Below the pieces are notes generated by a model that was not told the origin of the DNA, searched no databases, and saw only the letters and a program-made list of their open reading frames with translations. Shown here piece after piece: positions 4,083 to 21,578 of a DNA stretch of 43,465 nucleotides (the stretch's first letter is position 1; every line of letters starts with the position of its first letter). Source of the DNA: Pseudomonadota bacterium (GTDB lineage: Bacteria; Campylobacterota; Campylobacteria; Campylobacterales; Sulfurospirillaceae); the NCBI GenBank assembly GCA_017860615.1, contig JAGDMU010000015.1, positions 1 through 43,465 of the forward strand, written 5' to 3'. The position numbers and the translations under genes are program-made.

Positions 4083-4084
4083 GA

Positions 4085-6424: not shown

Positions 6425-6763
6425 CGCGTCTCCTTGTTATCTTTTGCCTTTAAGTTTCGCACTTCCAAACAGTGTCTAAAAGTACGTCTTGTTATATCCA
6501 TTGTAAAGCAACTATCTTAGAAAGAACTTACAAAAGGTAAAAAAAATTAGTCAAAATAATATATAGTAGGAGTAAATGCCCTATTTAAGGGGATTTCAAA
6601 AGAGGTAAATTTAATGTTTTTTTGATACAAAAGAGGCATAAAAGTAAATTTTTATAAACTTTTTACACCATTTGTTTATGATTTTGGTTAAAAAAAACAG
6701 GAGATTATCAATTTTTATATTTAAGTTTAAATGGCTATTTGAACGGTGTTATATAAATTTTGG
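6425..6763. other. AT-rich intergenic region upstream of the reductase operon
   Basis: 339 bp without a plausible gene. It must hold the promoter of the minus-strand psr-type operon and the 3' end of the bioC transcript. The only clear element is the AAGGAGA ribosome binding site just before the psrA ATG. I looked for a full FNR/CRP-like inverted repeat (TTGAT-N4-ATCAA) and found only half-site-like stretches. There is no strong hairpin terminator for bioC. Confidence 0.5.
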
Positions 6764-7483
6764 TTATATTTTATTAACCTTTTGAGACATGTTTGACACA
6801 CCCCACAAAAAAAGAACCTCAAATTCAAGATAAGAATGAGGATAATTTTGAATCAATGCTTTGGTTTGAGCAACGCTCAAACGCTTTATGCCTCCACTGA
6901 CACCACTTTTTTTGATATAGCGAAATTTGGAGAGGTTATCGTCAAAAAAAAGACGAAACGTTTTGATTTCATGTTGACATGTGAAATAGGTTTCAAACAT
7001 AACTGCCAAAGCTTTAGCATTGGGTAAAAAGGAAGGAAGACCACTCATGGTATAAATTGTCTCAAATGTTTTATCTGTAAAAATGGCAAAAGCACCCTCG
7101 TGGCACATTGATGCCATTGTGGACATTAACGCTTCTAAGTCTTGTGCCCATTGTAGGGCAGACGATGAAACTAAAAGATCATAGGGAGGATTTAAACACG
7201 AAGAGAGAGAAGGTGACTCAAAATCCTCACAGAGAATCTCAACGTTTTCAGCTTGAGGATGGCGTTCACACATCTTGGGTGCACAATCAATTCCCGTAAA
7301 ATGCTCTACTTCCCATACAATATTTTTAAAAACAGCGCCACTGCCACACCCTAAATCTAAGATTTTTTTAGGTTTTGAATGAATATGTGAGATTAAGTAA
7401 TGTGCTATTTCTTGCTGTAAAGAGGTATAGTCATCATAACTATGAGCATTTTTGGAAAATTCTTTGATATGTTTTGCGATCAT
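6764..7483 (-). CDS. bioC: SAM-dependent methyltransferase, probable malonyl-ACP O-methyltransferase BioC
   Basis: About 239 residues. Class I methyltransferase motif I is ILDLGCGSGA, with the acidic FTGIDCAP motif following. The opening EFSKNAHSYDDYTSLQQ and the LLVSSSALQWAQD segment are typical of BioC, which methylates malonyl-ACP to start pimelate synthesis for biotin. The frame also opens at a GTG at 7501, but a TATAAT box at 7515-7520 (minus) would leave that codon with almost no leader. The ATG at 7483 follows a purine-rich AAAAAGAG stretch and is preferred. No other biotin gene is adjacent, so the BioC call rests on sequence resemblance alone; a generic methyltransferase is the alternative. 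Confidence 0.65.
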   Translation of the reverse strand: MIAKHIKEFSKNAHSYDDYTSLQQEIAHYLISHIHSKPKKILDLGCGSGAVFKNIVWEVEHFTGIDCAPKMCERHPQAENVEILCEDFESPSLSSCLNPPYDLLVSSSALQWAQDLEALMSTMASMCHEGAFAIFTDKTFETIYTMSGLPSFLPNAKALAVMFETYFTCQHEIKTFRLFFDDNLSKFRYIKKSGVSGGIKRLSVAQTKALIQNYPHSYLEFEVLFLWGVSNMSQKVNKI

Positions 7484-7514
7484 GTGCGTTGAGATGTCCA
7501 CTCTTTTTCCAAAA

Positions 7515-7520
7515 ATTATA
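7515..7520 (-). promoter_or_regulatory. -10 box of the bioC promoter
   Basis: TATAAT on the minus strand, about 32 nt upstream of the preferred bioC ATG. Campylobacterotal sigma-70 promoters usually show a clear -10 and little -35, as here. It supports the start at 7483 over the GTG at 7501. Confidence 0.5.
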
Positions 7521-7728
7521 CCCCTATCTGGCTAAAAAACGACTTTTCACTTTATTATGCAAAGTCATTGTGTTGCCTTTACATCTTAATTTTCACTGCA
7601 TCCATAGAAAAGTCATATCTTGGTCATGTTTCAGTGCTAAAGAATAGGACCATCTCATCTCCTTATGTCCGATAAAATATCATCCTAAAATAATTTTTTC
7701 TCTTTTAATGAATAGTGAGGAGCATACA

Positions 7729-9423
7729 ATGTCACAATGGGGACGTTTAGGAATTTTGATGTGTCTTGTTTTAACAACACATGTCTGGGCATCTATTGGT
7801 AAAGTTTCTCTTTTAAAAGGCGAAGCATCTGCTTCGAGAAACAACCAAACCATTACACTTGCCAATGGAATAGCCCTCGAAAAACATGATGTTATTACAA
7901 CACAGGCAAACAGTCAAATTCAGCTAATTTTTGAAGATAAAACCGTTATCACGCTTGGTAGTGAAAGTATTTTGGATATTCAAGAGTATCTCAATGATGA
8001 TCAAGAATCTAAAGCAAAATTCAAATTTAATCAAGGTACCTTTAAAACCATCACGGGTCAAATCGGTAAAAAAGCACCTGAAAACTTTAACCTTGAGACA
8101 AAAACTGCAACCATCGGTATTCGAGGCACTACGGTTGTGGGGAGTATCGGAGAAGGAGATTCACCCGATATTATTGGTTGTAGTAGTGGGCGCATTGCCG
8201 TGAGTAATGAAAATGGCTCTGTAATCATTAATGCTGGTTTTCAAACCACCGTATCCAAAATACAATCACCAACACCACCTGCGGCACTTAGTCCAACGCT
8301 ACTGATCAGTAGCAAACTAACGCCATCAGTTCCATTAGCGCAAACATCGCACGAGGTAGAACCTGTTTCCCAGTCTGCTCAAACAACAACACTAAACAAT
8401 ACAGAACTCACCCCTCAAATTGACAGCAGCAGTACAATACAAACATCTCAATCAAAGCAACAAACAGCAACAACAAATAGCATTATTACACAAGTTGACA
8501 CCATTGAAAAAGCGGTTGATAAGGCCAATGATATTGTATCAACTGCTCAGACTAGCCAGTTTGTCTATCCAACCTTTACACCTCGTCTTCAAGCCTCTTG
8601 GCGCGATGTAGGAACCGTCACGTTAAGTGGTCTTGCCACATCTTTTTATACAAGCGATGGCACAACACTCTCAAGCATAACCGATACGTTTATGCTCTCT
8701 ATTCAAAGTGGTACCAACAACCTTAATCGTACCTACAGTTATATTGCACTTGATCGTACCAATTCATTCATGGTTGACTTAACCAAATCCAGTGATGCCT
8801 CCACAATGACCTATAAACATATCAATCAGTTTTCTATCAAAGATTTTGACATATACCAAGGCTGGATGCAAACACGAAACACGTACTCCAATGACTATGT
8901 CTCTTGGGGGTATTGGGCAGTTAAACTTGATGATGATAGTAAACTTCTTGCTACAAGTAACTATTGGGTTGCAGGAGTGAACGCTGACGTTGCAAAAAAC
9001 CATATAGACTCACTTATTGCCAACAACAGCACAACAACATACGCTTATCAAGGGCATGTTATTGGTACTGTAAACGATGGTACCAATAGCTATGCAATTA
9101 ACCCAACAAAAAATAATGCCGTAGCACTCAATTTTGATTTTGGCGCAGGAACTGGGACACTAAAAAATAGTAGTTATATCACATTTCAAACAACCGCATC
9201 AACACCACAACGATGGTTTATCACCCCTTCTGGTAGCATGACAAATGGCAATTTTAGCTTCCAAAATAATGGCAATGTTGCAATAAATGGCGTAACAAAC
9301 ACAAGCAGTAGCAGTGCACTTCATGGTCAATTCTATGGTACTTCTGCCCAAGCAGTCGGTGGAACATTCAGTGCAACATCAGGAAGCAATACTGCAACTG
9401 GGGTATTTAAAGCAATACGCTAA
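7729..9423 (+). CDS. secreted FecR-domain protein with TbpB-like C-terminal barrel (paralogue 1)
   Basis: 564 residues from the preferred ATG. An in-frame ATG at 7708 lies upstream of the GAGGAG site, and the paralogue starts at the equivalent MSxWG. A Sec signal peptide ends near A21 (HVWA/S). Residues about 22-180 form a FecR domain (LANGIALEKHDVITTQ, LIFEDKTVITLGSES, ATIGIRGTTVVG). A Ser/Thr/Gln/Pro linker runs to about 278. A beta-rich domain follows, with WGYW, YWVAGV and YQGHVIG stretches, ending in GQFYGTSAQAVGGTF near residues 533-547. That ending matches the C-terminal barrel signature of TbpB-like proteins recognised by Slam translocons. No lipobox or membrane helix was seen, so a soluble or surface-retained protein is likely. 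It is probably cargo of the Slam-like gene downstream. The ligand is unknown. Confidence 0.75.
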   Translation: MSQWGRLGILMCLVLTTHVWASIGKVSLLKGEASASRNNQTITLANGIALEKHDVITTQANSQIQLIFEDKTVITLGSESILDIQEYLNDDQESKAKFKFNQGTFKTITGQIGKKAPENFNLETKTATIGIRGTTVVGSIGEGDSPDIIGCSSGRIAVSNENGSVIINAGFQTTVSKIQSPTPPAALSPTLLISSKLTPSVPLAQTSHEVEPVSQSAQTTTLNNTELTPQIDSSSTIQTSQSKQQTATTNSIITQVDTIEKAVDKANDIVSTAQTSQFVYPTFTPRLQASWRDVGTVTLSGLATSFYTSDGTTLSSITDTFMLSIQSGTNNLNRTYSYIALDRTNSFMVDLTKSSDASTMTYKHINQFSIKDFDIYQGWMQTRNTYSNDYVSWGYWAVKLDDDSKLLATSNYWVAGVNADVAKNHIDSLIANNSTTTYAYQGHVIGTVNDGTNSYAINPTKNNAVALNFDFGAGTGTLKNSSYITFQTTASTPQRWFITPSGSMTNGNFSFQNNGNVAINGVTNTSSSSALHGQFYGTSAQAVGGTFSATSGSNTATGVFKAIR

Positions 9424-9457
9424 ATTAGACTATCTGCACTTTAACTCAATACTCTTT

Positions 9458-9490
9458 GCACCACATGATTTATGTATCAATATGTGGTGC
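9458..9490 (+). other. intergenic hairpin between the two FecR genes
   Basis: Perfect 9-bp inverted repeat GCACCACAT / ATGTGGTGC with a 15-nt loop, in the 138-bp gap between the paralogues. No T-run follows, so it is not a standard terminator. It could stabilise the upstream mRNA, partly stop transcription, or be a protein-binding site. That it acts at all is unproven. Confidence 0.4.
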
Positions 9491-9561
9491 AGAGATATCA
9501 ATCATATTTTAAGAAACCTTTTCATAAAATATCTAACAATACTCATAATGAGGAGTTACAC

Positions 9562-11169
9562 ATGTCTAAATGGGGGCATTTAGGAATGGTGATGTGCTTA
9601 CTTTTAAGCACACAGGTATGTGCATCTATCGGCACAGTTTCTCTCTTAAAAGGTAAAGCAACCGCTAACCGCAATCATCAAACTATTGCTCTTGCTAATG
9701 GCACAGCACTTGAAGAACATGATCTGATCACAACACATGCAAACAGTCAAATGCAGCTGACCTTTGAAGACAAAACGGTCATCACGCTGGGTAGTGAGAG
9801 TGTCTTAGATATCAAAGAATACCTCAATGACACCCAAAACCCCAAAGCAAAATTCAAATTTAACCAAGGGACCTTTAAAACAATCACAGGGCAAATTGGT
9901 AAAAAAGCCCCAGAAAATTTTAATTTAGAGACCAAAACAGCAACCATTGGTATTCGTGGAACAACCGTTGTAGGACAAATTGGCTCAAACGGCGGAAATG
10001 GCATAGCTCCACTACCTGATCTTATTGGTTGCAGTTCTGGGCAAATCATTGTCTCGAATCCTTCTGGCTCAGTCATTCTTACGCAAGGGTTTCAAACGCT
10101 AATCCTTATAGGACAACCGCCAGCACCACCTGTTCCCTTAAGCCCAGCATTAATCAATTCTATGTATGGCAGTGCGCTGCAACAGCAAACACTTCCACCA
10201 GCACCGCCACCTTCACCTCTTGCGCCAACACTAGTAGAACAAGCAACACAGACCAATCAGCAAACAGCAACATCAAATACTATCGTTACGCAAGTTGAGA
10301 CCCATAGCAATAGTTTTTATCCAACGTTTAACCCTACATTGCAAGCATCATCTCATAATGTAGGGATTGTTTCACTCTCAGGATATGCTACTTCACACTA
10401 TAAGCAAAATGGAACAACATCCATAAGTAACACAGATACATTAAGCCTAATCCTTGATACCTCGAATGATAGTATTACTGACAGTACTATGAATTTAGAT
10501 CGATTTACACATGTAGATTCTCTTTCCTTAAACAAAAACAGTGATTCCTCTACCATGACGTATAAAAATATCAAGGAATTTTCAATCAAGGATTTTAACG
10601 AATACCAAGGATGGTTACAAACTGAAAATACCTATGCCAATGACTATGTTACATGGGGATATTGGTCTATCAAAGCCAACGATGATACGAAGCTACTAGC
10701 AACGACGAATTACTGGGTAGCAGGAGTTGATTCAGGCACAGCACATGATCATATTGCAACGTTAATAGCAGGAAATAACATCTCTTACACTTACAATGGG
10801 CATGTCCTAGGCAGCGTCACTAATGGTGCTAATAGCTATAGCATTGATCCTACCAATAACAATGCCGTTGTCTTCAATTTTGATTTTGGAGGAGGCAGTG
10901 GAAGTCTTGCAAATGGAAGCTATATTAAATTCCAAACAACACAAGCAACACCTCAAGTATGGCAAATAGGTGTCTCTGGTGGCATTGAAGGAGGCAGTTT
11001 CAATCTCGGTAATGAAGCTACGGTACAGGTGAATGGTGTAACGGATGCTTTGAGTACAAGCTCTATTAAAGGCACATTTTATGGTAGCAACGCTGAGGCA
11101 GTTGGCGGGACATTTAAAGCAACATCAGGAACAAGCACCGCTTCAGGTGTCTATAAGGCGGCCAAATAA
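9562..11169 (+). CDS. secreted FecR-domain protein with TbpB-like C-terminal barrel (paralogue 2)
   Basis: 535 residues, starting at the ATG after a GAGGAG site; an in-frame ATG at 9472 lies in the intergenic hairpin region and is rejected. It is a close tandem paralogue of the preceding gene. The signal peptide (cleavage near A21), the FecR domain and the C-terminal domain align closely, while the proline-rich linker (about 175-250) and the loop between GQIG and the conserved LIGCSSG differ. The end GTFYGSNAEAVGGTF (about 505-519) again has the TbpB-like barrel signature. The cysteine in VCAS is not in a proper lipobox. The stop codon overlaps the next start (TAATG), which ties this copy to the Slam-like gene. 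Nothing nearby resembles a FecI sigma factor, so a classical FecR anti-sigma role is unlikely. Confidence 0.75.
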   Translation: MSKWGHLGMVMCLLLSTQVCASIGTVSLLKGKATANRNHQTIALANGTALEEHDLITTHANSQMQLTFEDKTVITLGSESVLDIKEYLNDTQNPKAKFKFNQGTFKTITGQIGKKAPENFNLETKTATIGIRGTTVVGQIGSNGGNGIAPLPDLIGCSSGQIIVSNPSGSVILTQGFQTLILIGQPPAPPVPLSPALINSMYGSALQQQTLPPAPPPSPLAPTLVEQATQTNQQTATSNTIVTQVETHSNSFYPTFNPTLQASSHNVGIVSLSGYATSHYKQNGTTSISNTDTLSLILDTSNDSITDSTMNLDRFTHVDSLSLNKNSDSSTMTYKNIKEFSIKDFNEYQGWLQTENTYANDYVTWGYWSIKANDDTKLLATTNYWVAGVDSGTAHDHIATLIAGNNISYTYNGHVLGSVTNGANSYSIDPTNNNAVVFNFDFGGGSGSLANGSYIKFQTTQATPQVWQIGVSGGIEGGSFNLGNEATVQVNGVTDALSTSSIKGTFYGSNAEAVGGTFKATSGTSTASGVYKAAK

Positions 11170-12473
11170 TGAAACTCTCCCATATCGTAGCAATTGCACT
11201 GCTTGGAACACACCTTTATGCTCAAGACGTTTCCTCTAAAGAGCTGTATGACTCAGCGCAAAAAGCATACGCACAAGGTGATTTTGCCAAAGCGTACCCT
11301 CTTTTTGAACAACTCTTTGAACAAACACCCAACAGTGCTGAAATCAACTTTTTTGTAGGTCGTTGTGCCTTAGAATTACGCCAGTATGATGATGCTATTG
11401 CCGCATTTGATCGCGTTTTGATGCTCAATCCAAAGCATACGCGTACGCACCTTGAACTGGCACGCCTTTACTTTGAACGCCAACAGTTAGAATTTGCACA
11501 AACCGAACTTGATCTTGTCCTCAATGAGCAACTGCCCAATGATATACGTGATGTTGCAACCGCATTTAAGCGCCAGATCAATGAACGTATCAGTCCTCAT
11601 AAATTTGCAGGAGCCCTCATTGTGGGTGGTGGATACGATAGCAACGTAAACAATGACATTGGCTCTAAAGAGTTCATTCTACCTTCACTCAACATTCCAC
11701 TCTCGGGAGACAAAAAAGAGAAAGACGGCTACGGCTTTTCAACATTTGTGCTTAACCACAGTTATGACTTTGGCGAGCGTGGTGGATGGAGTTTAGAAGA
11801 TAGCTTCGTAGCTTATGATAAGCTCTATTCCCAATCAAGCAAAAATAATCTGGTGTTATTGGCACTCTCGAGTGCACCAACATGGAGTGAAAATAACTAC
11901 AAAATAGCGCTACCTGTAACGTTTGATCGTGTTTACATTGATGGTAGAGGTTACCTTTACAATATAGGAGCTGGTATAAAAAACAGCTACCTCATCGATC
12001 CACTCTCTCAAATTGAGGGAGGGTACAGCTTTAAACGTGGGTATTACAATGAAGAGACACATGATGTCAATGCACATCTACTTTTTGCAAACTACCGACG
12101 TGTCATAGGCGAAAATCTCTTTGCACTAGGACTTCACACAAGCTACGGTATCAATAAAGAGGTTGAGTCAGTACGTACGGATGTGCAAAACAAAGAGTGG
12201 AAATATGGGCTTGATCTCTCAAAAGAGTTTACCAAAACATTCAGAGGTTCGCTTGGTTATACGCGAACTTCAACCGATTATGATGATGTTGATGCACTTT
12301 TTCTTACCAAACGCCAAGACGACAAAGATCAATATGAGCTCTCCTTGGATTACACGCTGCAAAAGAACCTCGCACTTGGCATGAGCGTCATGTACAGCGA
12401 CAACCATTCCAACCACGATCCGTATGATTATGACAAAATCAATGCACTTGCTAGCATTATGTGGACATTTTAA
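11169..12473 (+). CDS. Slam-like outer-membrane protein (TPR + DUF560-type barrel)
   Basis: 434 residues. A signal peptide (cleavage after HLYA) is followed by tetratricopeptide repeats at about 25-150 (ELYDSAQKAYAQGDFAKAYP, then two more helical pairs). From about 155 the chain is a beta-barrel opening with GALIVGGGYDSNVNND and ending in a C-terminal Phe, the usual outer-membrane barrel signature. This TPR plus barrel order is that of Slam (surface lipoprotein assembly modulator, type XI secretion), which moves proteins with TbpB-like barrels across the outer membrane. Both preceding genes encode proteins with such a barrel, so they are the expected cargo. The start overlaps the previous stop by one base. 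A generic TPR-porin is the alternative. Confidence 0.75.
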   Translation: MKLSHIVAIALLGTHLYAQDVSSKELYDSAQKAYAQGDFAKAYPLFEQLFEQTPNSAEINFFVGRCALELRQYDDAIAAFDRVLMLNPKHTRTHLELARLYFERQQLEFAQTELDLVLNEQLPNDIRDVATAFKRQINERISPHKFAGALIVGGGYDSNVNNDIGSKEFILPSLNIPLSGDKKEKDGYGFSTFVLNHSYDFGERGGWSLEDSFVAYDKLYSQSSKNNLVLLALSSAPTWSENNYKIALPVTFDRVYIDGRGYLYNIGAGIKNSYLIDPLSQIEGGYSFKRGYYNEETHDVNAHLLFANYRRVIGENLFALGLHTSYGINKEVESVRTDVQNKEWKYGLDLSKEFTKTFRGSLGYTRTSTDYDDVDALFLTKRQDDKDQYELSLDYTLQKNLALGMSVMYSDNHSNHDPYDYDKINALASIMWTF

Positions 12474-12476
12474 CAC

Positions 12477-14693
12477 ATGCGTAAAAGCCTTACACAGCTT
12501 CTTTTCACCTTTATGGTTATGGGAAGCTGTAGCGTAGGCTATCTCTATTTTAACACCTTTTGGCAACCCTTTGAGTACAAGATCAAAGATCTGATGCTTC
12601 AAAGCAGAGGCGAGATTGTGGGTGATGAGAACATTGTGATCATTGATATTGACGAGAAGAGTCTTAAAGCTTTGGGACAATGGCCATGGAGCAGAGATAA
12701 AATTGCCAAATTGTTGCAAAATCTCTCTGATCTTGGCGTTGCCATTATTGGATTGGATGTTGTCTTTGCAGAAGCCGATAACAGCTCACCCCAACGCGTT
12801 TTAAAACAATTAGGACTTCCTTATCAAACCTTGCCCGATTACGATGCCATTTTTGCACAAACCATTGCACAAACCCCTACAGTTATCGGCTACGTTTTTG
12901 CGCTCACACCTGATGCGATGGAGCCCGAAGGTCATCCAAAGTCAGCCGCCATCATCATTGAGCAAAACCGACCTGAACACTCATCACTCATCAAGCCTTA
13001 CCGTGCTATTTTAAACATTCCACCGATTCAAAAACAAGCCTATTCCAGTGGCTATTTCAATACCATCCCCGATAGTGATGGCATTGTAAGGAGTATTCCG
13101 TTGGTGATGGAATACGATGGTGTACTCTACCCATCGCTTAGCCTTGAAATGGTGCGTATCGCATTGGGCGAAAAGAAGATTAACATTGTTTATGATGAGA
13201 GTGGACTTCATCATATTGAAATTGGTGAGCACATCATCCCTACCGATTTTTTCGGACGTTTAATGGTTAATTACCGCGGAAGCCAACACAGTTACGAGTA
13301 CATTTCAGCCATTGATATCTATAATAACAGCGTCAATCCGCTCCAAATCAAAGATAAAATCGCCCTTTTAGGTACATCCGCTGCGGGATTGCTTGATCTA
13401 AGAAGTACCCCTTTTGAGAGTGTTTATGCGGGCGTAGAGGTCCATGCCAATGCCATTGATAACATTTTACACCAAGACTATATTGCAAAGCCCATTTGGA
13501 CGGTTGGAGTCGATCTTATTAGCCTCATAGTACTTTGCCTCGTTACCTTAGCAATTCTGCTAGTACCCAGTGCGCTTTTTAGTTTCGTAGCACTTGTCAT
13601 GCTCAATCTTTGTGTGGTTTTCACACACTACTACAGTATGATTTATCAAGGGGTGTTGTTTCATACCACCTTACCATTGGTGGCGATCAATGTTCTCTTT
13701 ATCGTCGGGCAAGCCATTAATTATTTTCTTGAAATTAGGCAAAAAGAGCTTATCAAACACAAATTTGCAAGCAAAGTAAGCCCTGCTGTTATGAATAACA
13801 TTCTCTCAAGTGAAAAGGATATTTTGCAAGGTGTTGAAAAAGAGATCACGATCTTTTTCTCCGATATACGCAATTTTACGGCTATCTCCGAAGCGGTGGG
13901 CGATCCAAAACATCTCATTCATCTTATGAATGCCTATATGGATCCAATGAGTCAAATCATCATTCGTTCAGGCGGTACGGTTGATAAATTTATTGGAGAT
14001 GCCATTATGGCATACTGGAACGCACCTCTTAGCATGAAAGATCATGCGGATAAAGCCGTTACTGCGGCATTGCAACAACTACACCATCTTAAATCCCTTA
14101 ATGCCGAACTCAAAGCCACCCCTGAATTTGCTAAAATCGCTTCCATGTCTGAAGCTAAAGCTATGCCTATCATCGACATTGGCATTGGTATCAATACAGG
14201 TGTTGCGATTGTGGGCGAGATGGGAACCAGTAACCGAAGCGACTATACCGTTATCGGCGATGCGATTAATCTAGGCTCTCGCTTAGAGTCTTTGTGCAAG
14301 TATTACAATTCACATCTAACGATCTCTCACTTCACCAAAGCTAAGTTGAAAGGCTCTTATATCTTTCGCTTTTTAGATTTAGTCACGGTTAAAGGAAAAA
14401 ATGAGCCTGTTGAAGTGTGGCAAATCCACGACTTTGACACGCCTCAAGAAGAGTCACTTTACTCAGTCCGTTATGAAGAGCTCCAAGAGGAGCTAAAGCT
14501 TTATCATGAAGCGATTGCCCTCTACAAAGAGACACACTTTGACGAAGCACTGAGCTGTTTTGAAGCGTTGCAAAAGAGAGAGAATAAAACCAATGAAGCG
14601 ATTTATTCCATTTATATCGAGCGCTGTTCACACTATATTGACTTTCCGCCTCTTGCATTTAACGGTGTCTTTGTGCACACAACTAAAGGATAA
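12477..14693 (+). CDS. CHASE2-domain class III adenylate cyclase
   Basis: 738 residues. One N-terminal membrane helix (about 8-26) is followed by a periplasmic CHASE2 sensor (about 35-340, with IVIIDIDEKSLKALGQWPWS and the later YAGVEVHANAIDNIL), about three helices (345-425), and a cytoplasmic class III cyclase (about 450-645). The metal-binding aspartates D463 (FFSDIRNFT) and D508 (DKFIGDAIMAYW) are present, with N598 and R602 for the transition state. K504 and T591 occupy the base-selecting positions and point to ATP, so the product should be cAMP. A short C-terminal TPR-like tail ends near PPLAFNGVF. The gene begins 3 nt after the Slam-like stop. A periplasmic sensor in this operon suggests it reads the state of the envelope or the FecR proteins, which is inference. 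Confidence 0.85.
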   Translation: MRKSLTQLLFTFMVMGSCSVGYLYFNTFWQPFEYKIKDLMLQSRGEIVGDENIVIIDIDEKSLKALGQWPWSRDKIAKLLQNLSDLGVAIIGLDVVFAEADNSSPQRVLKQLGLPYQTLPDYDAIFAQTIAQTPTVIGYVFALTPDAMEPEGHPKSAAIIIEQNRPEHSSLIKPYRAILNIPPIQKQAYSSGYFNTIPDSDGIVRSIPLVMEYDGVLYPSLSLEMVRIALGEKKINIVYDESGLHHIEIGEHIIPTDFFGRLMVNYRGSQHSYEYISAIDIYNNSVNPLQIKDKIALLGTSAAGLLDLRSTPFESVYAGVEVHANAIDNILHQDYIAKPIWTVGVDLISLIVLCLVTLAILLVPSALFSFVALVMLNLCVVFTHYYSMIYQGVLFHTTLPLVAINVLFIVGQAINYFLEIRQKELIKHKFASKVSPAVMNNILSSEKDILQGVEKEITIFFSDIRNFTAISEAVGDPKHLIHLMNAYMDPMSQIIIRSGGTVDKFIGDAIMAYWNAPLSMKDHADKAVTAALQQLHHLKSLNAELKATPEFAKIASMSEAKAMPIIDIGIGINTGVAIVGEMGTSNRSDYTVIGDAINLGSRLESLCKYYNSHLTISHFTKAKLKGSYIFRFLDLVTVKGKNEPVEVWQIHDFDTPQEESLYSVRYEELQEELKLYHEAIALYKETHFDEALSCFEALQKRENKTNEAIYSIYIERCSHYIDFPPLAFNGVFVHTTKG

Positions 14694-14695
14694 CT

Positions 14696-17089
14696 ATGAG
14701 TTATATTCGTATTTTAGGCGCTCAAGGAAGTAGATCGAAAGAGTCTTTTACAACCTGTATTCAAGTGACAAAAAATACACTCATTGATGCGGGCAATATT
14801 ATGCACGCTCTTGGTGATGAAGCATTGCATATCAATCGTATTTTTTTCTCCCATGCCCATTTAGACCATATCATCGACACAGCGTTTATGATTGACAATT
14901 TTTTTGTCAATCGAACAGAGACACTTTCGCTTTATGGACTTCCCCACACCATTGAAGCATTGAAAAAGCATCTTTTTAACGATGTACTCTGGCCTGATTT
15001 CAGTCAAATTCACCTCGTCAATTCTACAATCCCTGCCATTACCTATGTTGAGATAGAAGTCAATCAACCATACATGATTGAAGAAGGCATTACCCTCACC
15101 CCTTTTGAAGCCAATCACACAGTTCCTTGCTGTGGTTATATCATCACCCAAAATAATAGTAGCGTACTCTTCTCTGGCGATACGTTTCACAATGATGCTC
15201 TTTGGCAGTTACTTAATAAAAAGCCTGAAATTAAAGCGCTGATTATTGACGTCTCATTTCCCAATCGCTTTGTAAAAATTGCAACGGAAAGCAAACATCT
15301 CACACCCCATTTTTTAAAAGAAGGGTTACAAAACCTCAAACGAGATGATCTGCATATCTATATCAACCATCTTAAACCTTTCTACGCAGAGCAGATTGCA
15401 CATGAACTTTATGCTATAGGTATCTCAAAAGATGCTATTTTGAATGATGGTGAAAGTATAGAGCTTGCGACAGGAGTCTTAAGCGCTAACGTCCCAAACA
15501 GTGTCGATGAACGCGTTCACAAACTCACCGAAATCGGCACAGCACTTTCTGCCAATGAAAGCCTTGATGTCTTACTAGAAATGATTGTTACAGAAGCTAA
15601 AAACCTCACGGGTGCAGACGGAGGAACACTGTATCTACTGGAAAATGATGAACTTCGTTTTAAAGTAATCCAGACAGACTCTTTAACGATCAAAATGGGA
15701 GGAACCAGTGGAAAAATCACTTGGCCACCGCTCCCACTTTACCTTGAAAATGGTGTTCCTAACAAAGCGATGGTTGCTGCAACCTGCGCACTTGAAGATC
15801 GTCTGGTTAATATTTCAGATGTGTATGAAGCGATAGGCTTTTCGTTTGAGGGAACCAAAAAATTTGATCAAGGCACAGGCTATCGTTCTAAATCCATGCT
15901 GGTTATTCCCATGAAAAATCATGAACGTGAAATCATCGGCGTTTTGCAACTGATCAATAAAATGGATCCGCAAACACATGACGTAATAACCTTTGATACG
16001 GAAGATGAAAAGATTACACTCTCGCTTGCTTCGCAAGCTGCCATTGCCATTACCAACACATCGCTTATTCAAGGCCTTGAAAATCTTTTAGAGTCTTTTT
16101 TGAAAAGCATCATTTTTGCTATCAGCAAAAAATCACCCTATACCGCTGGACATATCAAGCGTATGGTAAAACTAAGCGTTATGATCGCAGAAGCCATCAA
16201 TAAAGATACAACGTTTTATGCCCATAAACACTTTAGTGCCGAAGAGATAAAACAGATCAACTTTGCAGCGCTCATGCATGACATTGGAAAACTCGCTACT
16301 CCTGAGCAAATTATCGATAAAGCAACAAAGCTTGAGACTTTATGTGATCGTATTAACCTTATTGAAAACCGCATAAAAACACTTGAGAAAGCACTGCATG
16401 TCAAACTTTTAGAAGATAAATTCGCGCTCTTAGAAGGGAAAAAAGAAGGTGACATCGCTACGCTAGAAGAAGCCTATGCCAAAGAGATTCAAATGTTGCA
16501 TGAAGCTTTTTTACTCATTCAAACCAGCAACAAAGGTGACGCATTTCTTACCGATGAAGGCGTTGCTAAAATCCAAGCACTTGCAAAAAAGCAATGGCAT
16601 ATTGGAGATGAAAACTACACTCTTCTCACCGAAGATGAAGCCTATCATCTTAGCACTCAAAAAGGGACACTCACCTACGAAGAGCGCGAAATCATCAATG
16701 CACATGCAAAACTCAGCGTCGATATTTTAAACCGTCTCCCTTTCCCTAAAAAATACCAACAAATCCCTCAAATTTCAGGCAATCACCATGAAAAAATTAA
16801 TGGAAAAGGTTATCCACAAGGACTTAAGGGTGAAGAAATCAGCTTTGAAGCACGCATTTTAGCCATTGCTGATATTTTTGAAGCCTTAACAGCAAGTGAT
16901 AGACCCTATAAAGCAGGTATGCCACTCTCCGTAGCCATGAAAATTCTCTACACTATGGCGCAAGAAGGCGATCTTGATAAAGAACTCGTCAAATTTTTCT
17001 ATACCTCAGGCATCTATAAGGAGTACGCAAAAACCTTTTTACCACAACGCTCTATCGATGAAATCACATTGGATTTTAATCATTTATAG
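14696..17089 (+). CDS. class II cNMP phosphodiesterase-like + GAF + HD-GYP fusion protein
   Basis: 797 residues, apparently cytoplasmic. Residues 1-265 form a metallo-beta-lactamase fold with H53, H55, D57 and H58 (SHAHLDH) and FSGDTF. The stretch LYGLPHTIEALKKHLFN plus WPDF closely resembles class II 3',5'-cyclic-nucleotide phosphodiesterases (yeast PDE1, Vibrio CpdP). A GAF domain follows (about 266-450), then an HD-GYP domain with H528/D529 (LMHDIGKL) and HHEKINGKGYPQGL (GYP at 705-707), expected to hydrolyse c-di-GMP. A roughly 115-residue, helix-rich insertion (about 541-660) splits HD from GYP. It starts 2 nt after the cyclase, so cAMP synthesis and a probable cAMP-degrading domain are encoded together. 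Its 3' end overlaps the convergent type I secretion outer-membrane gene by 14 nt. Confidence 0.8.
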   Translation: MSYIRILGAQGSRSKESFTTCIQVTKNTLIDAGNIMHALGDEALHINRIFFSHAHLDHIIDTAFMIDNFFVNRTETLSLYGLPHTIEALKKHLFNDVLWPDFSQIHLVNSTIPAITYVEIEVNQPYMIEEGITLTPFEANHTVPCCGYIITQNNSSVLFSGDTFHNDALWQLLNKKPEIKALIIDVSFPNRFVKIATESKHLTPHFLKEGLQNLKRDDLHIYINHLKPFYAEQIAHELYAIGISKDAILNDGESIELATGVLSANVPNSVDERVHKLTEIGTALSANESLDVLLEMIVTEAKNLTGADGGTLYLLENDELRFKVIQTDSLTIKMGGTSGKITWPPLPLYLENGVPNKAMVAATCALEDRLVNISDVYEAIGFSFEGTKKFDQGTGYRSKSMLVIPMKNHEREIIGVLQLINKMDPQTHDVITFDTEDEKITLSLASQAAIAITNTSLIQGLENLLESFLKSIIFAISKKSPYTAGHIKRMVKLSVMIAEAINKDTTFYAHKHFSAEEIKQINFAALMHDIGKLATPEQIIDKATKLETLCDRINLIENRIKTLEKALHVKLLEDKFALLEGKKEGDIATLEEAYAKEIQMLHEAFLLIQTSNKGDAFLTDEGVAKIQALAKKQWHIGDENYTLLTEDEAYHLSTQKGTLTYEEREIINAHAKLSVDILNRLPFPKKYQQIPQISGNHHEKINGKGYPQGLKGEEISFEARILAIADIFEALTASDRPYKAGMPLSVAMKILYTMAQEGDLDKELVKFFYTSGIYKEYAKTFLPQRSIDEITLDFNHL

Positions 17090-18383
17090 CCACAAGATTA
17101 TTAAGACGCTCAATATCATGAAACGTAAGGTTCCCCGTAATATTTAAAATACTCACATAAGCATTGATAAGCGTATAAACAGCATCAATTAATTTAAATT
17201 GGGTTTCATAAAGTTTTGTCTTGGCATCTTCTAAATCAATTAAATTCTTCAATCCATGCTCATACCCTTTTTGAACAGAATAAAGATAAAGCGTAGCAGA
17301 GTTTTTGGCATCTTTTTGCAATATAATGTCTTGCAATGCTGATTCATAATTGATTCTAAGCTCTTCATATTTGAGCTTAATAGTGCGTTTTTGATCCGAC
17401 AAATCTTCTCGTGCCGCATTGAGTAACAATCGGCTCTTTTCAATCTGTGAATCGACTTTGCCTCCTTGATAAAGTGGCACTTTAAAAGATAATAAGATAC
17501 GACTATCTTTCTCGTAGTCTACGCTAACATCGTCCGTTTCATATTTTGTATGAGAGAGACTTAAATCTAAAATTGGATAATGCCCGTATTTAGAAGCTTC
17601 AACCTCTTTTTCATATATTTGTGTACTGAGCTGACTCATTTTAATATCGGGGTTGCTACTCAAGTCCTGTTCTGGTATAAAATGGAGAAAAGATGAAATA
17701 TCAAGTGTATCAAACGAAACAATGGGGATATTACCAATTTCCAGACCAATCAGTGTTTTGAGTTTCATTTTAGAAAGAGCAAGCATCTGTTCTTGTTTAT
17801 GAAGAATGATTTTAGACTGCTCATAAGCTAATTTTGACTCTAATAAATCCATTTTATTTGAAAGTTGAAGATCTAACTTTTCCATAATTTGCTGGTATCG
17901 TAAAAAGTTTGTTTTAACGTATGACTCTGCAACTAAAACACTATTTTGATATTTTAAAACAGAAATATAAGCATCTGCCACTTTATAAGCCAAATCTTGC
18001 TCTTGCTTAGAAAGATAGATACGTGCCGAATCTGCTTTAAGTTGTGCACCTTCTATTTGAGCTACTATCTCAGGTCGATACAAAACTTGTGATGCTGTAA
18101 TCGAAGCGGAATTGTAACGCTCTTTAGTTTTGAAATGGAATAAATTATCTTTATATTCTCGATTAGAGTTATCAAACGAAGCATATATTTGTGGGAAAAG
18201 TTGAGACTCTGCTTGTTTAATATCTTCTGTTTTTGCATCCACCTGATAGCTAACCGATTTTAATTTTGTTTCATAATTGAGTGCTCGCTTGTACGCTTCA
18301 CTCAATGTTGGAAACGTATCATTGGCGTTACCATGTAAACCCATTAAACTTATCATCAAAAAAGATACATACCGCATGTTCAT
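17076..18383 (-). CDS. TolC-family outer-membrane channel of a type I secretion system
   Basis: About 435 residues from the ATG at 18383, which follows GAAGAG and gives a clean signal peptide (MNMRYVSFLMISLMG, then GNA). Earlier in-frame starts (18422, 18398) overlap the adaptor gene and lack a site. The chain has the duplicated helical pattern of TolC/PrtF-type efflux proteins, with long coiled-coil stretches (AYEQSKIILHKQEQMLALSK; IKLKYEELRINYESALQD) and PLYQGGKVDSQI before the second helical hairpin. It should form the outer-membrane exit duct for the ABC exporter and adaptor encoded upstream in the same operon. Confidence 0.85.
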   Translation of the reverse strand: MNMRYVSFLMISLMGLHGNANDTFPTLSEAYKRALNYETKLKSVSYQVDAKTEDIKQAESQLFPQIYASFDNSNREYKDNLFHFKTKERYNSASITASQVLYRPEIVAQIEGAQLKADSARIYLSKQEQDLAYKVADAYISVLKYQNSVLVAESYVKTNFLRYQQIMEKLDLQLSNKMDLLESKLAYEQSKIILHKQEQMLALSKMKLKTLIGLEIGNIPIVSFDTLDISSFLHFIPEQDLSSNPDIKMSQLSTQIYEKEVEASKYGHYPILDLSLSHTKYETDDVSVDYEKDSRILLSFKVPLYQGGKVDSQIEKSRLLLNAAREDLSDQKRTIKLKYEELRINYESALQDIILQKDAKNSATLYLYSVQKGYEHGLKNLIDLEDAKTKLYETQFKLIDAVYTLINAYVSILNITGNLTFHDIERLNNLVAIND

Positions 18384-18387
18384 ATTT

Positions 18388-19701
18388 CTACTCTTCATTA
18401 AAACTACGACTAAGCATATCAAAAAATGGTTTCATCAGATAACTAAGTGCTGTTCTCTCTTCGGTTTTAATCATGACTTCTACTGGCATACCCGCAACTA
18501 AAGAAAATTGATATCCTTTAAGCTGTTCATATCCACTAGGCGTGAGCTCTAATTTCACTTCATAATAAGGCATACCTGTTCTTTGATCTGTTAAACTATC
18601 CGCAGAGACATGCACAACCTTTGCTTCCAATACATTGGTATATTTTGTATTAAACGCTGAAAAGCGAATATCTGCCAATAGATGAGGATGAACTTTATCA
18701 ATATCTGTTGTTTGAATTTTTGCACTAATCATGAAATGTACATTATGTGGAACAATATCCATAATAGGTTTTCCCGCAGCAATAACGCCACCTATCGTAT
18801 GCATTTCCAACCCAATTACAACGCCAGTAATAGGCGCTTTAACAACCAATCTCTCTGATGTGTCTTTCATTGCAACCATTCTTGATCGCAATTCCGAAAG
18901 CATGTTTTTAGTTGTAACAAGCTCATCGAACGTTTTATCTTGTATCTCTTTTTGACGCGCTAAAAATTGAGATTGTAATTCATTCATTTGCTCTTTTGCT
19001 TTTGCGATTTCGGCTTGTGAATTGGCTATATCGCCTTCAATCATCGCTTTTTCTTTCATCAATTCACGTATTTTTAACTTATCAATCAATTGTTCCGCTA
19101 AAAGTATTTTCCACTCTTCAATCTCTTCATTGATCGCTTTAAGTCGAATAAATTTACTCTGGAGTAACGCTGTAATCCCCTCTGTGTAGCGCAATAACTG
19201 GGTTGTTCTTTGTTCCGTAATGCGGGCATCGTTGATGATCATTTTTTGTTTAAGCTCAAAAATTTGCTTCTGCGTGCGTATCGTATTGAGGAGTTCAGGA
19301 GTTTGTTCTTGTGCCAAAAGCTCTTCTGAAAATTTTATCTCGTTGAAAGCATTGATTTGAGACTCTAACCTAGATTCTAAAACAAGTGCCTCACAATACT
19401 GGTTTATTAAGATATGCAATTGCGATGAAACACTACTGTTTTGAAATTTTAGAAGTACTTGCCCTTCATTAACACTATCGCCATTGCGTACTAAAATCTC
19501 TTCTACAATGCCACCTTCTAAATGCTGAACCGTTTTCTTATAAATATCTGCTGATACGCTCCCCGTTGCAACAATGGCACTTGAGAGAGGCGCTATAGCC
19601 ATCCACCCACCGATAATACAAAATACCACTATAATAACAGCCACTCCAAAGCGAATTAAATGTTGATCATTATCATCGGGTCGTAAGTTATTTTTCCGCA
19701 T
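18388..19701 (-). CDS. HlyD/PrtE-family periplasmic adaptor (membrane fusion protein)
   Basis: 437 residues. One N-terminal membrane helix (about 17-40) follows a short cytoplasmic tail. A first lipoyl half (VQHLEGGIVEEILVRNGD) leads into a long alpha-helical coiled coil (about 100-280), the second lipoyl half (VKAPITGVVIGLEMHTIGG) and beta-barrel domains, ending with the family segment GMPVEVMIKTEERTALSYL. The protein bridges the inner-membrane ABC exporter and the TolC-like channel. It starts 2 nt after the exporter stop with AAGGG upstream, and the downstream channel gene begins within a few bases of its stop, so the three genes form one operon. Confidence 0.92.
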   Translation of the reverse strand: MRKNNLRPDDNDQHLIRFGVAVIIVVFCIIGGWMAIAPLSSAIVATGSVSADIYKKTVQHLEGGIVEEILVRNGDSVNEGQVLLKFQNSSVSSQLHILINQYCEALVLESRLESQINAFNEIKFSEELLAQEQTPELLNTIRTQKQIFELKQKMIINDARITEQRTTQLLRYTEGITALLQSKFIRLKAINEEIEEWKILLAEQLIDKLKIRELMKEKAMIEGDIANSQAEIAKAKEQMNELQSQFLARQKEIQDKTFDELVTTKNMLSELRSRMVAMKDTSERLVVKAPITGVVIGLEMHTIGGVIAAGKPIMDIVPHNVHFMISAKIQTTDIDKVHPHLLADIRFSAFNTKYTNVLEAKVVHVSADSLTDQRTGMPYYEVKLELTPSGYEQLKGYQFSLVAGMPVEVMIKTEERTALSYLMKPFFDMLSRSFNEE

Positions 19702-19703
19702 TA

Positions 19704-21398
19704 TTAAGCCCTTGCCGTGGAGGGTTGCAGTTTTTGTAAAACCTCTTGCGTAGGGCCATAAAGCTGAAGTTGTCCTTGTTGTAATAGCAGTAATTTATGC
19801 GTTACTTGTAACACATGGGGACGTTGCGTAATGATAATAACCGTTGTTCCTTTGGCGTGTAATGCTTTAATGGCATCAATCAACGCCACTTCCCCAACAT
19901 CATCCAAATTAGAATTTGGTTCATCCAAAACAACAATGACGGGTTCCCCGTAAAGAGCCCGTGCTAGTCCAATACGCTGGCGCTGACCTCCCGAGAGTGT
20001 TGCCCCTCCGTTGCCAATACGCGTATTATAGCCATCAGGAAGTTTTAAAATCATCTCATGCACCCCTGCTGTTTTAGCAGCTTCCACTACCTTCTGTGCA
20101 TCTAACTCGAAAAAACGGCTAATATTTTCACTGATCGTTCCTTCAAAAAGCTCTATATCTTGGGGTAAATATCCAATATACTGCCCTAAAAAAACTTTGT
20201 CCCACTGTGCGATATCTGCCATATCAAGCCTGACTTTTCCTGATGCCAAAGGCCAGATGCCAAGAATTGCTCGTGCTAAACTAGATTTTCCAGCTGCACT
20301 AGGACCAATAATACCAACCACTTCTCCTTTTGTAATATGCAATGAAACACCTTTTAAAGAAGCTTGCTTTGAAGTAGGAGGAACAACAACAATGTTTTCG
20401 AGTAAAAGCTCTCCCGTAGGAGCAGGCAAAGCCATCGGTTTTTCTTGGTGTGGAAACTCTTTTAAGAGATAGGATAACTTTTTATAAGAGCTTCTTGCTT
20501 GACTAAAACCTTTCCAGCTTGAAATCATTAAATCAAGTGGTGCTAAAGCTCTACCCATAATGATGGATCCCGCAATCATCATACCAGATGTTATTTCGGC
20601 GTGAATTGCAAGATAACCGCCTAACCCAAGAATTAAAGATTGAAAAAGAAGTCGAGATGATTTGGTAATATTCATCCAAAAACCAGCATTATCACTGGCA
20701 ATCATTTGTGCATTTAAAAATCCAAAATATTTTTTTTGCCATAGCTTTTGAATCTCATTTTGCATTCCCATGGCATAAATCACTTCTGCATTTCTTAAAC
20801 TATTGTCAAGAAAAGCATTGGATGCCCTATTGAGTTGATTAGCCTCTTCTAACTTCTTTTTCGTTTGCTTTTCATTCATAAAAGCAAAAATAACTAAAAC
20901 AGTTCCAGCAAAAAGGGAGAACCAGCCAAAATAAGGATGAAATAAAAATAAAATTCCGCTATAAATCACAATCCATGGTGCATCAAAAAATGCAAATAAT
21001 CCATTACCTGTCAATGATTGTCGAATATACCCAAGATCATTAAAGGGCATTGAAGAGGCTTTATCAGGTGCTTTATTGGCTAATAAAAAAATGGATTCAA
21101 AAATTCTATCGCTTAATATATTATCCATTTTATTACTCATGCGTACTAAAATGCGTGATCGTACAATTTCAAGTATTGCCATTACGATAAATAGGATGAC
21201 TATAAGCAAAGTTAACATCCACAGTGTACTTTCACTTCGACTAAGCATAACACGATCATACAATTGCAACATATAAAGAGGAGATGCCAATTGTAATAGA
21301 TTAATAAAAAAACTAAAAAGCCCCGCATAGATTAACGATTTTTTTGTTTCAAAAAAAACTTCATGTATCTCTTGTCGTGGAACACTTGAGTGAGGCAT
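19704..21398 (-). CDS. type I secretion ABC exporter (PrtD family)
   Basis: 564 residues. The N-terminal transmembrane half has about six helices (residues 20-300), and a nucleotide-binding domain follows, with Walker A GPSAAGKSS, signature LSGGQRQRIGLARAL and Walker B VIVVLDEPNSNLD. No N-terminal C39 peptidase or C39-like domain is present. That fits the PrtD/AprD type that exports RTX proteases through an uncleaved C-terminal signal, rather than the HlyB type. The divergently transcribed neighbour is just such an RTX protease. The ATG follows AAAGGAG. Confidence 0.92.
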   Translation of the reverse strand: MPHSSVPRQEIHEVFFETKKSLIYAGLFSFFINLLQLASPLYMLQLYDRVMLSRSESTLWMLTLLIVILFIVMAILEIVRSRILVRMSNKMDNILSDRIFESIFLLANKAPDKASSMPFNDLGYIRQSLTGNGLFAFFDAPWIVIYSGILFLFHPYFGWFSLFAGTVLVIFAFMNEKQTKKKLEEANQLNRASNAFLDNSLRNAEVIYAMGMQNEIQKLWQKKYFGFLNAQMIASDNAGFWMNITKSSRLLFQSLILGLGGYLAIHAEITSGMMIAGSIIMGRALAPLDLMISSWKGFSQARSSYKKLSYLLKEFPHQEKPMALPAPTGELLLENIVVVPPTSKQASLKGVSLHITKGEVVGIIGPSAAGKSSLARAILGIWPLASGKVRLDMADIAQWDKVFLGQYIGYLPQDIELFEGTISENISRFFELDAQKVVEAAKTAGVHEMILKLPDGYNTRIGNGGATLSGGQRQRIGLARALYGEPVIVVLDEPNSNLDDVGEVALIDAIKALHAKGTTVIIITQRPHVLQVTHKLLLLQQGQLQLYGPTQEVLQKLQPSTARA

Positions 21399-21496
21399 TA
21401 CACTCCTTTATTCTCTTCGTCGTCATTTAAATGATATAAAAAGCTCATTTTAACACAAAAATAGATTTTCTTAATAAAAATTAAAAATATTTGATA

Positions 21497-21502: not shown

Positions 21503-21578
21503 CATACTTTAACTATTTTTGCTTACAATTCTTAAATATTTCTAATAATTTTAGCAATACCCTACATGAGGAATCATA

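Follow-up and report, generated by a model that had tools for sequence, protein, structure and literature searches.

Do the five consecutive genes at 7729–17089 of the window (the whole 43,465-nucleotide stretch analysed) make up one system that reports events at the cell envelope through cyclic nucleotides? As shown in Table 1, gene calling on the window placed all five on the plus strand, with the FecR genes 138 nt apart and gaps of −1, +3 and +2 nt thereafter, in agreement with the preliminary description, which had four of the genes packed at −1 to +3 nt. The FecR genes were taken to start at 7729 and 9562, each preceded by a GAGGAG motif; the starts of the longest ORFs lie further upstream (7708 and 9472). 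A scan returned 24 promoter-like sites (26.7 expected) and 3 terminator-like sites (7.6 expected). Our tentative answer, to which we assign a probability of roughly 0.4, is a two-module envelope-to-second-messenger operon, with an FecR/Slam-like input and a cyclase/phosphodiesterase output.

Table 1. Genes of the locus and their domains, in window coordinates
Feature	Position	Strand	Detail
FecR/TbpB-barrel protein 1	7729..9423	+	564 aa
FecR protein 1, FecR domain	about 7888-8190	+	Pfam
FecR protein 1, C-terminal TbpB-type barrel	about 9031-9417	+	end motif FYG..A...GGTF
FecR/TbpB-barrel protein 2	9562..11169	+	535 aa
FecR protein 2, FecR domain	about 9721-9978	+	Pfam
FecR protein 2, TbpB barrel	about 10783-11166	+	Pfam
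Slam-like outer-membrane protein	11169..12473	+	N-terminal TPRs, SlipAM barrel
Slam-like protein, SlipAM barrel	about 11745-12470	+	Pfam
CHASE2 receptor adenylate cyclase	12477..14693	+	CHASE2 + cyclase domains
Cyclase protein, CHASE2	about 12540-13550	+	Pfam
Cyclase protein, cyclase domain	about 13839-14426	+	Pfam
Dual phosphodiesterase	14696..17089	+	class-II cAMP PDE, GAF, HD-GYP
Dual phosphodiesterase, class-II cAMP PDE	about 14777-15340	+	HxHLDH intact
Dual phosphodiesterase, cNMP-type GAF	about 15563-16051	+	Pfam, solved relatives
Dual phosphodiesterase, HD-GYP	about 16076-17086	+	HD and HHE..GYP motifs intact

Predicted functions of the five proteins

Pfam calls (scores in bits, against the gathering cut-off) exceeded the cut-offs for the gene identities proposed earlier, namely FecR/TbpB proteins, a TPR/barrel protein, a CHASE2 receptor cyclase and a PDE/GAF/HD-GYP protein. 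For FecR proteins 1 and 2, the FecR domain scored 44.5 and 41.4 (cut-off 24) and TbpB_B_D scored 30.3 and 35.3 (cut-off 26). Protein 1 is laid out as signal peptide, FecR domain, low-complexity Pro/Ser/Thr/Gln linker, variable region and TbpB-type barrel, and protein 2 is its tandem duplicate (62% identity). Judged by eye, both have an N-terminal signal peptide without a lipobox (the Cys close to the cleavage site of protein 2 lies outside any lipobox context), so both look secreted and non-lipidated. The predicted structure was confident in the FecR domain only, with block-mean pLDDT values of 21–39 at the C-terminus. The FecR pair described earlier does exist here, but as a local duplication seen in 2 of the 10 FecR-bearing Sulfurospirillum loci (G000 and G155). 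A third locus (G167) combines a single FecR/TbpB gene with a tail-bearing ORF that has no FecR match, and on these grounds we discarded the idea of a functional heteropair.

The Slam-like protein passed the cut-off for SlipAM (PF04575, 30.1 vs 22) and those of generic TPR families, and it missed that of TPR_Slam (PF24575, 25.8 vs 35.2). Its AlphaFold model (pLDDT 82.6) has a 14-strand barrel after the TPR helices, if segments 244–247 and 250–257 are treated as one strand. A 14-strand barrel and a periplasmic TPR domain make up the Slam outer-membrane protein. In a Foldseek search the barrel model matched best the polysaccharide exporter BcsC, with porins also among the first hits; when the family profile was compared with solved structures, all of the matches listed (60 of 278) aligned in the TPR part. 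Of the 18 Slam-like proteins outside Sulfurospirillum, 14 were scanned, and 7 of these passed the SlipAM cut-off. Both adjoining FecR proteins carry the TbpB_B_D domain of Slam/T11SS cargo; they are the genome's only two TbpB_B_D proteins, and they adjoin its only SlipAM gene. Against the NCBIfam model for Slam-dependent surface lipoproteins (NF041636), they scored 23.6 and 23.9, below the equivalog cut-off of 80. From its sequence, the TPR protein of this CHASE2 cluster belongs to the Slam/T11SS barrel family, as had been proposed, with a putative role in secretion.

For CHASE2, a widespread sensor domain, few inputs are known. In the cyclase protein it scored 225.2 (cut-off 26.3) and Guanylate_cyc 71.1 (cut-off 21.9); the nearest solved structure was CyaB (3r5g, 3.1e-32). 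D463, K504, D508, T591, N598 and R602 were invariant in an alignment of 12 homologues, and we take them to be the metal-binding Asp pair, the Lys/Thr and the Asn/Arg expected of class III cyclases, which makes the protein a predicted CHASE2 adenylate cyclase. At three other loci (L053, L056 and L175), CHASE2 was fused directly to HD-GYP, with a short FecR gene adjacent or one gene off.

The last gene also fits its earlier label of a dual phosphodiesterase, and its motifs are intact. PDEase_II scored 49.7 (cut-off 23.7), and the HxHLDH motif is that of class-II cAMP phosphodiesterases; the sole solved relative found for this domain was 3',5'-cyclic-nucleotide phosphodiesterase 1 (4ojv, 6.6e-10). 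HD_5 scored 139.5 (cut-off 27.2), and with its HD and HHE..GYP motifs this domain is a predicted c-di-GMP phosphodiesterase, whose best solved match was a 3'3'-cGAMP phosphodiesterase. The GAF domain between them (47.6, cut-off 22.4) had as best solved relatives the cyclic-nucleotide GAFs of an adenylate cyclase (1ykd, 4.4e-17), PDE5A and PDE2A. Two of the genome's three other GAFs served as controls, with queries shorter than that of the operon's GAF: one matched NLH1/NLH2 regulators first (1.5e-6) and a PDE GAF (5w10) at 3.7e-5, and the other had no matches. The operon's GAF thus falls in the same sequence group as those of the 1ykd cyclase and mammalian PDE2/5, and differs from them in being flanked by a class-II cAMP PDE and an HD-GYP domain.

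The predicted PDE and GAF-HD-GYP parts occur fused in two opposite orders and also as adjacent split genes; an MBL pattern was not found at one locus, L086. A relaxed form of NKx(n)Fx3DE, presumably the signature of cyclic-nucleotide GAFs, was present in the GAF of 21 of the 23 fusions in the window's order (22 distinct, since L085 and L173 appear to be one contig of 13,533 bases). It was absent from the 4 reverse-order fusions, which counts against the two-module reading. With its closest relatives and this motif, the domain qualifies as a cNMP-type GAF that is predicted to bind cAMP, meaning that cAMP may gate c-di-GMP breakdown.

Distribution of the tail, the barrel and CHASE2

In a class sample of 150 genomes, CHASE2 was found in 19, the class-II PDE in 23 (all of the 19 included), SlipAM in 8 (all among the 19) and TbpB_B_D over its cut-off in 6 (all among the 8). 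FecR was found in 21, including 17 of the 19 with CHASE2, in a genome-level count that takes in FecR genes elsewhere, as in G109. The SlipAM gene lay at most two genes from the CHASE2 gene in 7 of 8 cases; the eighth was on a different contig, the end of which cuts its FecR gene.

Among FecR loci, the tail profile matched 17 of the 27 that have a Slam-like barrel and none of the 30 in which no such barrel is seen, some of the latter being cut by contig ends; outside Sulfurospirillum the counts were 7 of 17 and 0 of 29. From these 57 loci L092, on the same contig as L055, had been dropped beforehand (L063, likewise marked for removal, gave no FecR match). A strict tail pattern matched 0 of 1,649 other ORFs, and a relaxed one 6 of 1,323 other ORFs longer than 150 aa, 17 of 27 barrel loci and 1 of 30 loci without barrel, both patterns having been composed after inspection of the tails. 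At L089 the tail pattern occurs without a visible Slam-like gene, and a contig end cuts the FecR gene. Hypergeometric and Fisher values on these counts ignore genome kinship and are not usable as probabilities. The E-values from our own profiles err on the optimistic side, since each round of iteration drew on members recruited in earlier ones; a more stringent test is given by the Pfam cut-offs. These comparisons show the TbpB-like tail to be associated with the presence of a Slam-like barrel gene. The FecR proteins of 10 of the 27 Slam-like loci had no tail-profile match (at L046 and L127 they show no barrel by eye), and at L203 a Slam-like gene adjoins a tail-less FecR; both observations count against the two-module reading.

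FecR lay at most four genes from CHASE2 in 29 of 66 named loci, and the Slam-like barrel in 10 of 66; here L064 was skipped, L092 and L055 were both counted, in different groups, and the denominators omit 14 of 80 named and 2 of 25 class loci without a called CHASE2-cyclase or CHASE2-HD-GYP gene. The FecR–CHASE2 neighbourhood recurs in many taxa; that it holds at only 29 of 66 named loci counts against the two-module reading. FecR thus accompanies CHASE2 over a wider range of loci than Slam, and we regard CHASE2, contacted in the periplasm, as the probable core partner of FecR. The 30 of 57 FecR loci that have FecR beside CHASE2 and no visible Slam-like gene likewise argue for a periplasmic FecR domain, and they go against the earlier proposal of surface-exposed FecR modules; at most, exposure is likely for the C-terminal part.

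The set recurs in other genomes, and some genomes scatter its parts. Within Sulfurospirillum, the cyclase was present in 14 of 24 genomes, 10 of which had FecR/TbpB, Slam-like, cyclase and PDE genes together; the other 4 had cyclase and PDE genes but neither FecR nor barrel. These four form one nested clade (support 100/100; enclosing forks 93/98 and 100/98), so the FecR and barrel genes were most simply lost together once. Two further genomes (G156 and G160) have SlipAM and lack CHASE2, which speaks against the two-module reading, as does the survival of cyclase and PDE in the four. The preliminary description would have fallen had related genomes rarely kept these genes together; the counts favour linkage, the exceptions being the four Sulfurospirillum genomes and some scattered parts.

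Sequence identity in the genus declines towards the cell surface. In nine of the ten full loci (G167 left out), mean identities were 79.5 for the cyclase, 79.2 for GAF, 73.7 for CHASE2, 72.7 for HD-GYP, 69.6 for PDE, 61.6 for FecR, 57.1 for the Slam TPR, 49.8 for the Slam barrel, 38.9 for the FecR C-terminal part and 30.9 for the FecR middle (the last from 28 pairs, not 36).

A possible route from envelope to second messengers

In the two-module reading, the C-terminal TbpB-type barrel would mark the secreted FecR protein for export through the Slam-like (T11SS family) pore encoded next to it; its variable C-terminal part would reach the cell surface, and its N-terminal FecR domain would meet CHASE2 in the periplasm. 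An altered FecR–CHASE2 contact would lead the cyclase to make cAMP, which the class-II PDE domain would hydrolyse, and the HD-GYP domain would cut c-di-GMP, probably gated by cAMP bound to GAF. On this view a surface event, the presumed signal, would set off a pulse of cAMP and lower c-di-GMP (or raise it, if gating is inhibitory). A more specific version, which we consider quite improbable, makes the pore itself the signal wire: the low-complexity linker of FecR would remain inside the Slam-like barrel, leaving the variable domain and TbpB-type barrel outside the cell while the FecR domain is held against CHASE2 in the periplasm. Export, binding of a ligand or blockage of the pore would then be registered as cAMP and, via the cAMP-gated GAF-HD-GYP, as c-di-GMP.

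Much of this has precedents, and the locus can hardly be called a new system. Campylobacterota cyclases carry CHASE2 and are mostly clustered with a cAMP phosphodiesterase, an FecR protein and a TPR protein (PMC9239204, 2022), the same four gene kinds as here, for which those authors also inferred one horizontally spread pathway. The text of section 9 of that paper is without Slam/DUF560, TbpB barrels, GAF, HD-GYP or a mechanism; the link to an export pore and the make-up of the putative dual-messenger phosphodiesterase seem to be new details. The T11SS/Slam literature (PMC8406197, PMC12282271) describes the same arrangement of a TPR-bearing SlipAM-family barrel and a neighbouring non-lipidated cargo that ends in a TbpB-type barrel; the operon's putative cargo differs in bearing FecR rather than a known effector domain, and in being followed by cyclase and PDE. 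The words FecR, cyclase and Campylobacter are absent from the main texts of both papers. In Sinorhizobium meliloti, the barrel protein NsrA has been studied experimentally together with the CHASE2 cyclases CyaD1, CyaD2 and CyaK and with Clr (PMC13001267, PMC7529298, PMC5498481). There, too, an outer-membrane barrel and CHASE2 cyclases turn an outside signal into cAMP, but the barrel is residues 600–1200 of a much larger protein. Clr targets include FecR-domain and TPR proteins, and the FecR-domain protein SMc02177 is not needed for signal perception (same sources), which by analogy counts against the two-module reading; the main texts of PMC13001267 and PMC7529298 are without the word FecR.

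NsrA and its CHASE2 cyclases (PMC13001267, PMC7529298) also lend themselves to a different account, in which FecR is a wholly periplasmic CHASE2 ligand and the TPR-barrel an outer-membrane receptor like NsrA, not a translocon. The wider reach of FecR than of the barrel around CHASE2, the short tail-less FecR proteins of barrel loci L046 and L127 and the weak TPR_Slam and NF041636 scores would all fit. We nevertheless hold it to be somewhat unlikely, given the link between the TbpB-like tail and the barrel gene, the adjacency of the genome's only TbpB_B_D and SlipAM genes and the FecR/TbpB plus Slam-like pairs that in other genomes (L196, L199 and L200) stand apart from any cyclase gene in the 14–15 kb examined. 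Such separation would suit yet another possibility, unlikely in our view, that functions unrelated to each other share an operon: a T11SS pair secreting an FecR-domain adhesin or nutrient binder, and a pair of cAMP/c-di-GMP enzymes that sense a different cue. Genomes G122, G060 and G007 have a Slam-like gene and a tail protein at a distance from the cyclase (with no FecR match in G007), and G156 has such a pair while lacking CHASE2; the Sulfurospirillum clade reduced to cyclase and PDE and the dispensable SMc02177 point the same way. Against it stand the FecR–CHASE2 neighbourhood across many taxa, the presence of CHASE2 in each of the 8 class-sample genomes with SlipAM and the single pathway inferred in PMC9239204. 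A relic of FecI/FecR cell-surface signalling, with FecR as anti-sigma factor, is hardly credible, despite the FecR domain and the occurrence of ECF242 systems in Sulfurospirillum (PMC9239204). The FecR proteins have neither a cytoplasmic anti-sigma region nor a membrane helix after the signal peptide, and no sigma factor or TonB-dependent receptor gene was found among the ten genes scanned (6764–24773); we rejected this reading on those grounds.

If FecR proteins serve as periplasmic CHASE2 ligands and, in some lineages, are brought to the surface by T11SS, they would provide a testable route from the outside of the cell to cAMP. The predicted T11SS cargo would then gain an FecR-bearing kind, and the dual phosphodiesterase would be a single enzyme through which cAMP could exert direct control over c-di-GMP. 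Sulfurospirillum offers a natural control in the clade that retains cyclase and phosphodiesterase without FecR and barrel.

The locus and its flanks

The five plus-strand genes claimed in the preliminary description are present at the place and with the spacing that it gave. They encode two FecR proteins with a C-terminal TbpB-type barrel (the tail), a Slam-like TPR/barrel protein, a CHASE2 adenylate cyclase and a fusion of class-II cAMP phosphodiesterase (PDE), GAF and HD-GYP domains. The last four are tightly packed (-1, +3 and +2 nt), and GAGGAG precedes the likely start of each FecR gene. All named domains scored above the curated Pfam cut-offs, among them the TbpB_B_D domain of each FecR protein and the SlipAM domain of the barrel protein. 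The genome measures 2.79 Mb in 31 contigs.

Just upstream lies a divergent gene for a BioC-like methyltransferase, whose score of 126 bits falls short of the equivalog cut-off of 185; a divergent gene of similar size also flanks the locus in L039, L040 and L042, three of the compared loci. On the other side, a secretion block separates the PDE gene from genes for 111 and 317 residues. Since L039 and L040 have genes of like size directly after PDE, this block looks like an insertion in the window's locus.

Positions of features in the window and in compared loci (L numbers; G numbers are genomes)
Feature	Sequence	Positions	Strand
Five-gene locus	window	7729-17089	plus
Likely start, first FecR gene	window	7729	plus
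Likely start, second FecR gene	window	9562	plus
BioC-like methyltransferase gene	window	6764-7501	
Type I secretion set and RTX protease block	window	17076-24773	both
TolC-like, HlyD and PrtD-type ABC genes (type I secretion set)	window	in 17076-24773	minus
Serralysin-like RTX metalloprotease gene	window	in 17076-24773	plus
Slam-like gene beside a tail-less FecR	L203 (G060)	7598-10696	
SlipAM gene and adjoining tail-protein gene, CHASE2 absent	L202 (G156)	3606-8430	
CHASE2-HD-GYP fusion	L053	6371-8278	
CHASE2-HD-GYP fusion	L056	5966-7738	
CHASE2-HD-GYP fusion	L175	6115-8052	

The FecR/TbpB tail and the Slam-like barrel

Among 57 FecR-bearing loci, the tail profile matched in 17 of the 27 with a Slam-like barrel, as defined by our own profile, versus none of the 30 without it; outside Sulfurospirillum, the figures were 7/17 and 0/29. 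A short tail pattern gave 17/27 versus 1/30, the exception being L089, where the contig ends within the FecR gene. Of the 28 Slam-like genes in these loci, 27 have a FecR or tail gene as a neighbour and 18 a CHASE2 gene. Over stretches in which no cyclase gene was seen, G060 has one FecR/TbpB and Slam-like pair (L196) and G122 has two (L199 and L200); G007 (L197), likewise lacking a cyclase gene over the stretch covered, has a Slam-like gene and a tail protein without a FecR match. The same anatomy is seen in the gammaproteobacterium Nitrincola tibetensis (L087), where TbpB_B_D scored 25.9, just below the cut-off of 26, and no PDE match lies within 22 kb.

Some observations run counter to the link between tail and barrel: L046 and L127 have a Slam-like barrel, yet their FecR protein is short and shows no barrel tail by eye. 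In L203, the Slam-like gene that adjoins a tail-less FecR codes for 1,032 residues, the usual size being 430-550. As for the Slam identity itself, the window's barrel protein is predicted to comprise TPR helices and 14 strands; against this identity, the solved folds nearest to the model are BcsC and porins, and 7 of the 14 proteins scanned, from 18 Slam-like proteins outside the genus, reached the SlipAM cut-off.

Within Sulfurospirillum (9 of the 10 full loci), mean identity drops from the cytoplasm to the surface, from cyclase (79.5), GAF (79.2), CHASE2 (73.7), HD-GYP (72.7) and PDE (69.6) through FecR (61.6), the Slam TPR (57.1) and the Slam barrel (49.8) to the C-terminal part (38.9) and middle (30.9) of the FecR proteins. 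This is as expected if the fast-changing parts face a variable outside, although loose constraint predicts the same gradient.

Distribution, and the probable partner of FecR

CHASE2 occurred in 19 of 150 genomes drawn from the class, all of them included in the 23 with PDEase_II (22 above the cut-off). FecR was found in 21, 17 of which belong to the 19, in a genome-level count that includes FecR genes elsewhere (that of G109, for example, is on another contig and has an in-frame stop). SlipAM matched in 8 genomes, all within the 19, and undercounts the barrel: our profile detected Slam-like genes in G008, G047, G060 and G122, where SlipAM had no match. TbpB_B_D matched in 8 genomes at E ≤0.01, and the six above the cut-off all had SlipAM and CHASE2.

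A cyclase of the locus kind is present in 14 of 24 Sulfurospirillum genomes, ten of which have FecR/TbpB, Slam-like, cyclase and PDE genes together and four the cyclase and PDE only. These four group as a single clade (100/100) nested in the others, with 93/98 and 100/98 at the forks that enclose it, so that one joint loss of the FecR and barrel genes is the simplest account. Eleven genus members have SlipAM, nine of them with CHASE2; in the other two, G156 and G160, the SlipAM gene gives a stronger match (6.3e-26 and 3.5e-26). The gene in G156 adjoins one whose 1,165-residue product carries a TbpB-like tail but gives no FecR match, likely an ordinary type 11 secretion system (T11SS, Slam) pair.

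A FecR gene was found no more than four genes from CHASE2 in 29/66 named loci, 17/23 class loci (three of them Sulfurospirillum) and 8/12 further genus loci, compared with 10/66, 8/23 and 7/12 for the Slam-like gene. FecR beside CHASE2 is thus not universal, yet commoner there than the barrel, so that in general it probably pairs with CHASE2, in the periplasm, with the Slam/TbpB part as an add-on. This argues against a FecR domain wholly at the surface, where the preliminary description had placed it, and for export of the C-terminal part alone. A Pro/Ser/Thr/Gln-rich stretch (0.60 and 0.56 in the densest 50-residue block) joins the two parts.

L053, L056 and L175 each carry a direct CHASE2-HD-GYP fusion and, next to it or one gene removed, a short FecR gene; this is perhaps a c-di-GMP-only form of the pathway. 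Betaproteobacterial loci (L097, L106 and the similar L094, L109 and L113) mostly have a pair of CHASE2 genes, one of them for a protein of about 900 residues, together with a stand-alone class-II PDE or GAF gene close to the cyclase, the GAF product in L097 being a GAF-MshEN-T2SSE ATPase.

The cAMP cluster and its predicted dual phosphodiesterase

A Campylobacterota cyclase cluster has been described (PMC9239204), so the core was already known and "new system" was too strong a term; the locus is a fresh version of that cAMP cluster. For a T11SS-type input to it, we found no earlier report. The words FecR and cyclase are absent from the main text of two T11SS papers (PMC8406197, PMC12282271), and our literature search, as far as the texts were accessible, found no paper linking FecR, TbpB and Slam, the sole text with all three words concerning Lysobacter siderophore production. 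In Sinorhizobium meliloti, according to the portions consulted of PMC13001267 and PMC7529298, CHASE2 cyclases answer an outside protein signal via the outer-membrane barrel protein NsrA. The mechanism proposed for our locus is read from sequence and gene order.

Cyclase motifs were invariant across 12 aligned homologues, the nearest solved relative being CyaB (3r5g). In the remarkable dual phosphodiesterase, both the class-II PDE and HD-GYP sites are intact in 9/9 aligned proteins. Among the loci surveyed, the window's order, PDE-GAF-HD-GYP, was found in 23 proteins (22 distinct) and the reverse, GAF-HD-GYP-PDE, in four; L060 encodes them in two neighbouring genes, PDE in one and GAF-HD-GYP in the other. 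The occurrence of both orders means that breakdown of cAMP and, presumably, c-di-GMP was paired at least twice or rearranged. HxHxDH is present in 22/23 and 4/4, respectively.

The window's GAF is closest to cyclic-nucleotide-binding GAFs. Of the genome's three other GAFs, two served as controls with shorter queries; one matched NLH regulators first and a PDE GAF weakly, and the other gave no match. An NKx(n)Fx3DE-like motif occurs in 21/23 window-order proteins versus 0/4 reverse-order ones, so that cAMP gating of GAF-HD-GYP, if real, would belong to the window's kind. With six matches to cNMP-binding domains (five above the cut-off) and 50 to GGDEF, the genome would plausibly supply readers and makers for both messengers.
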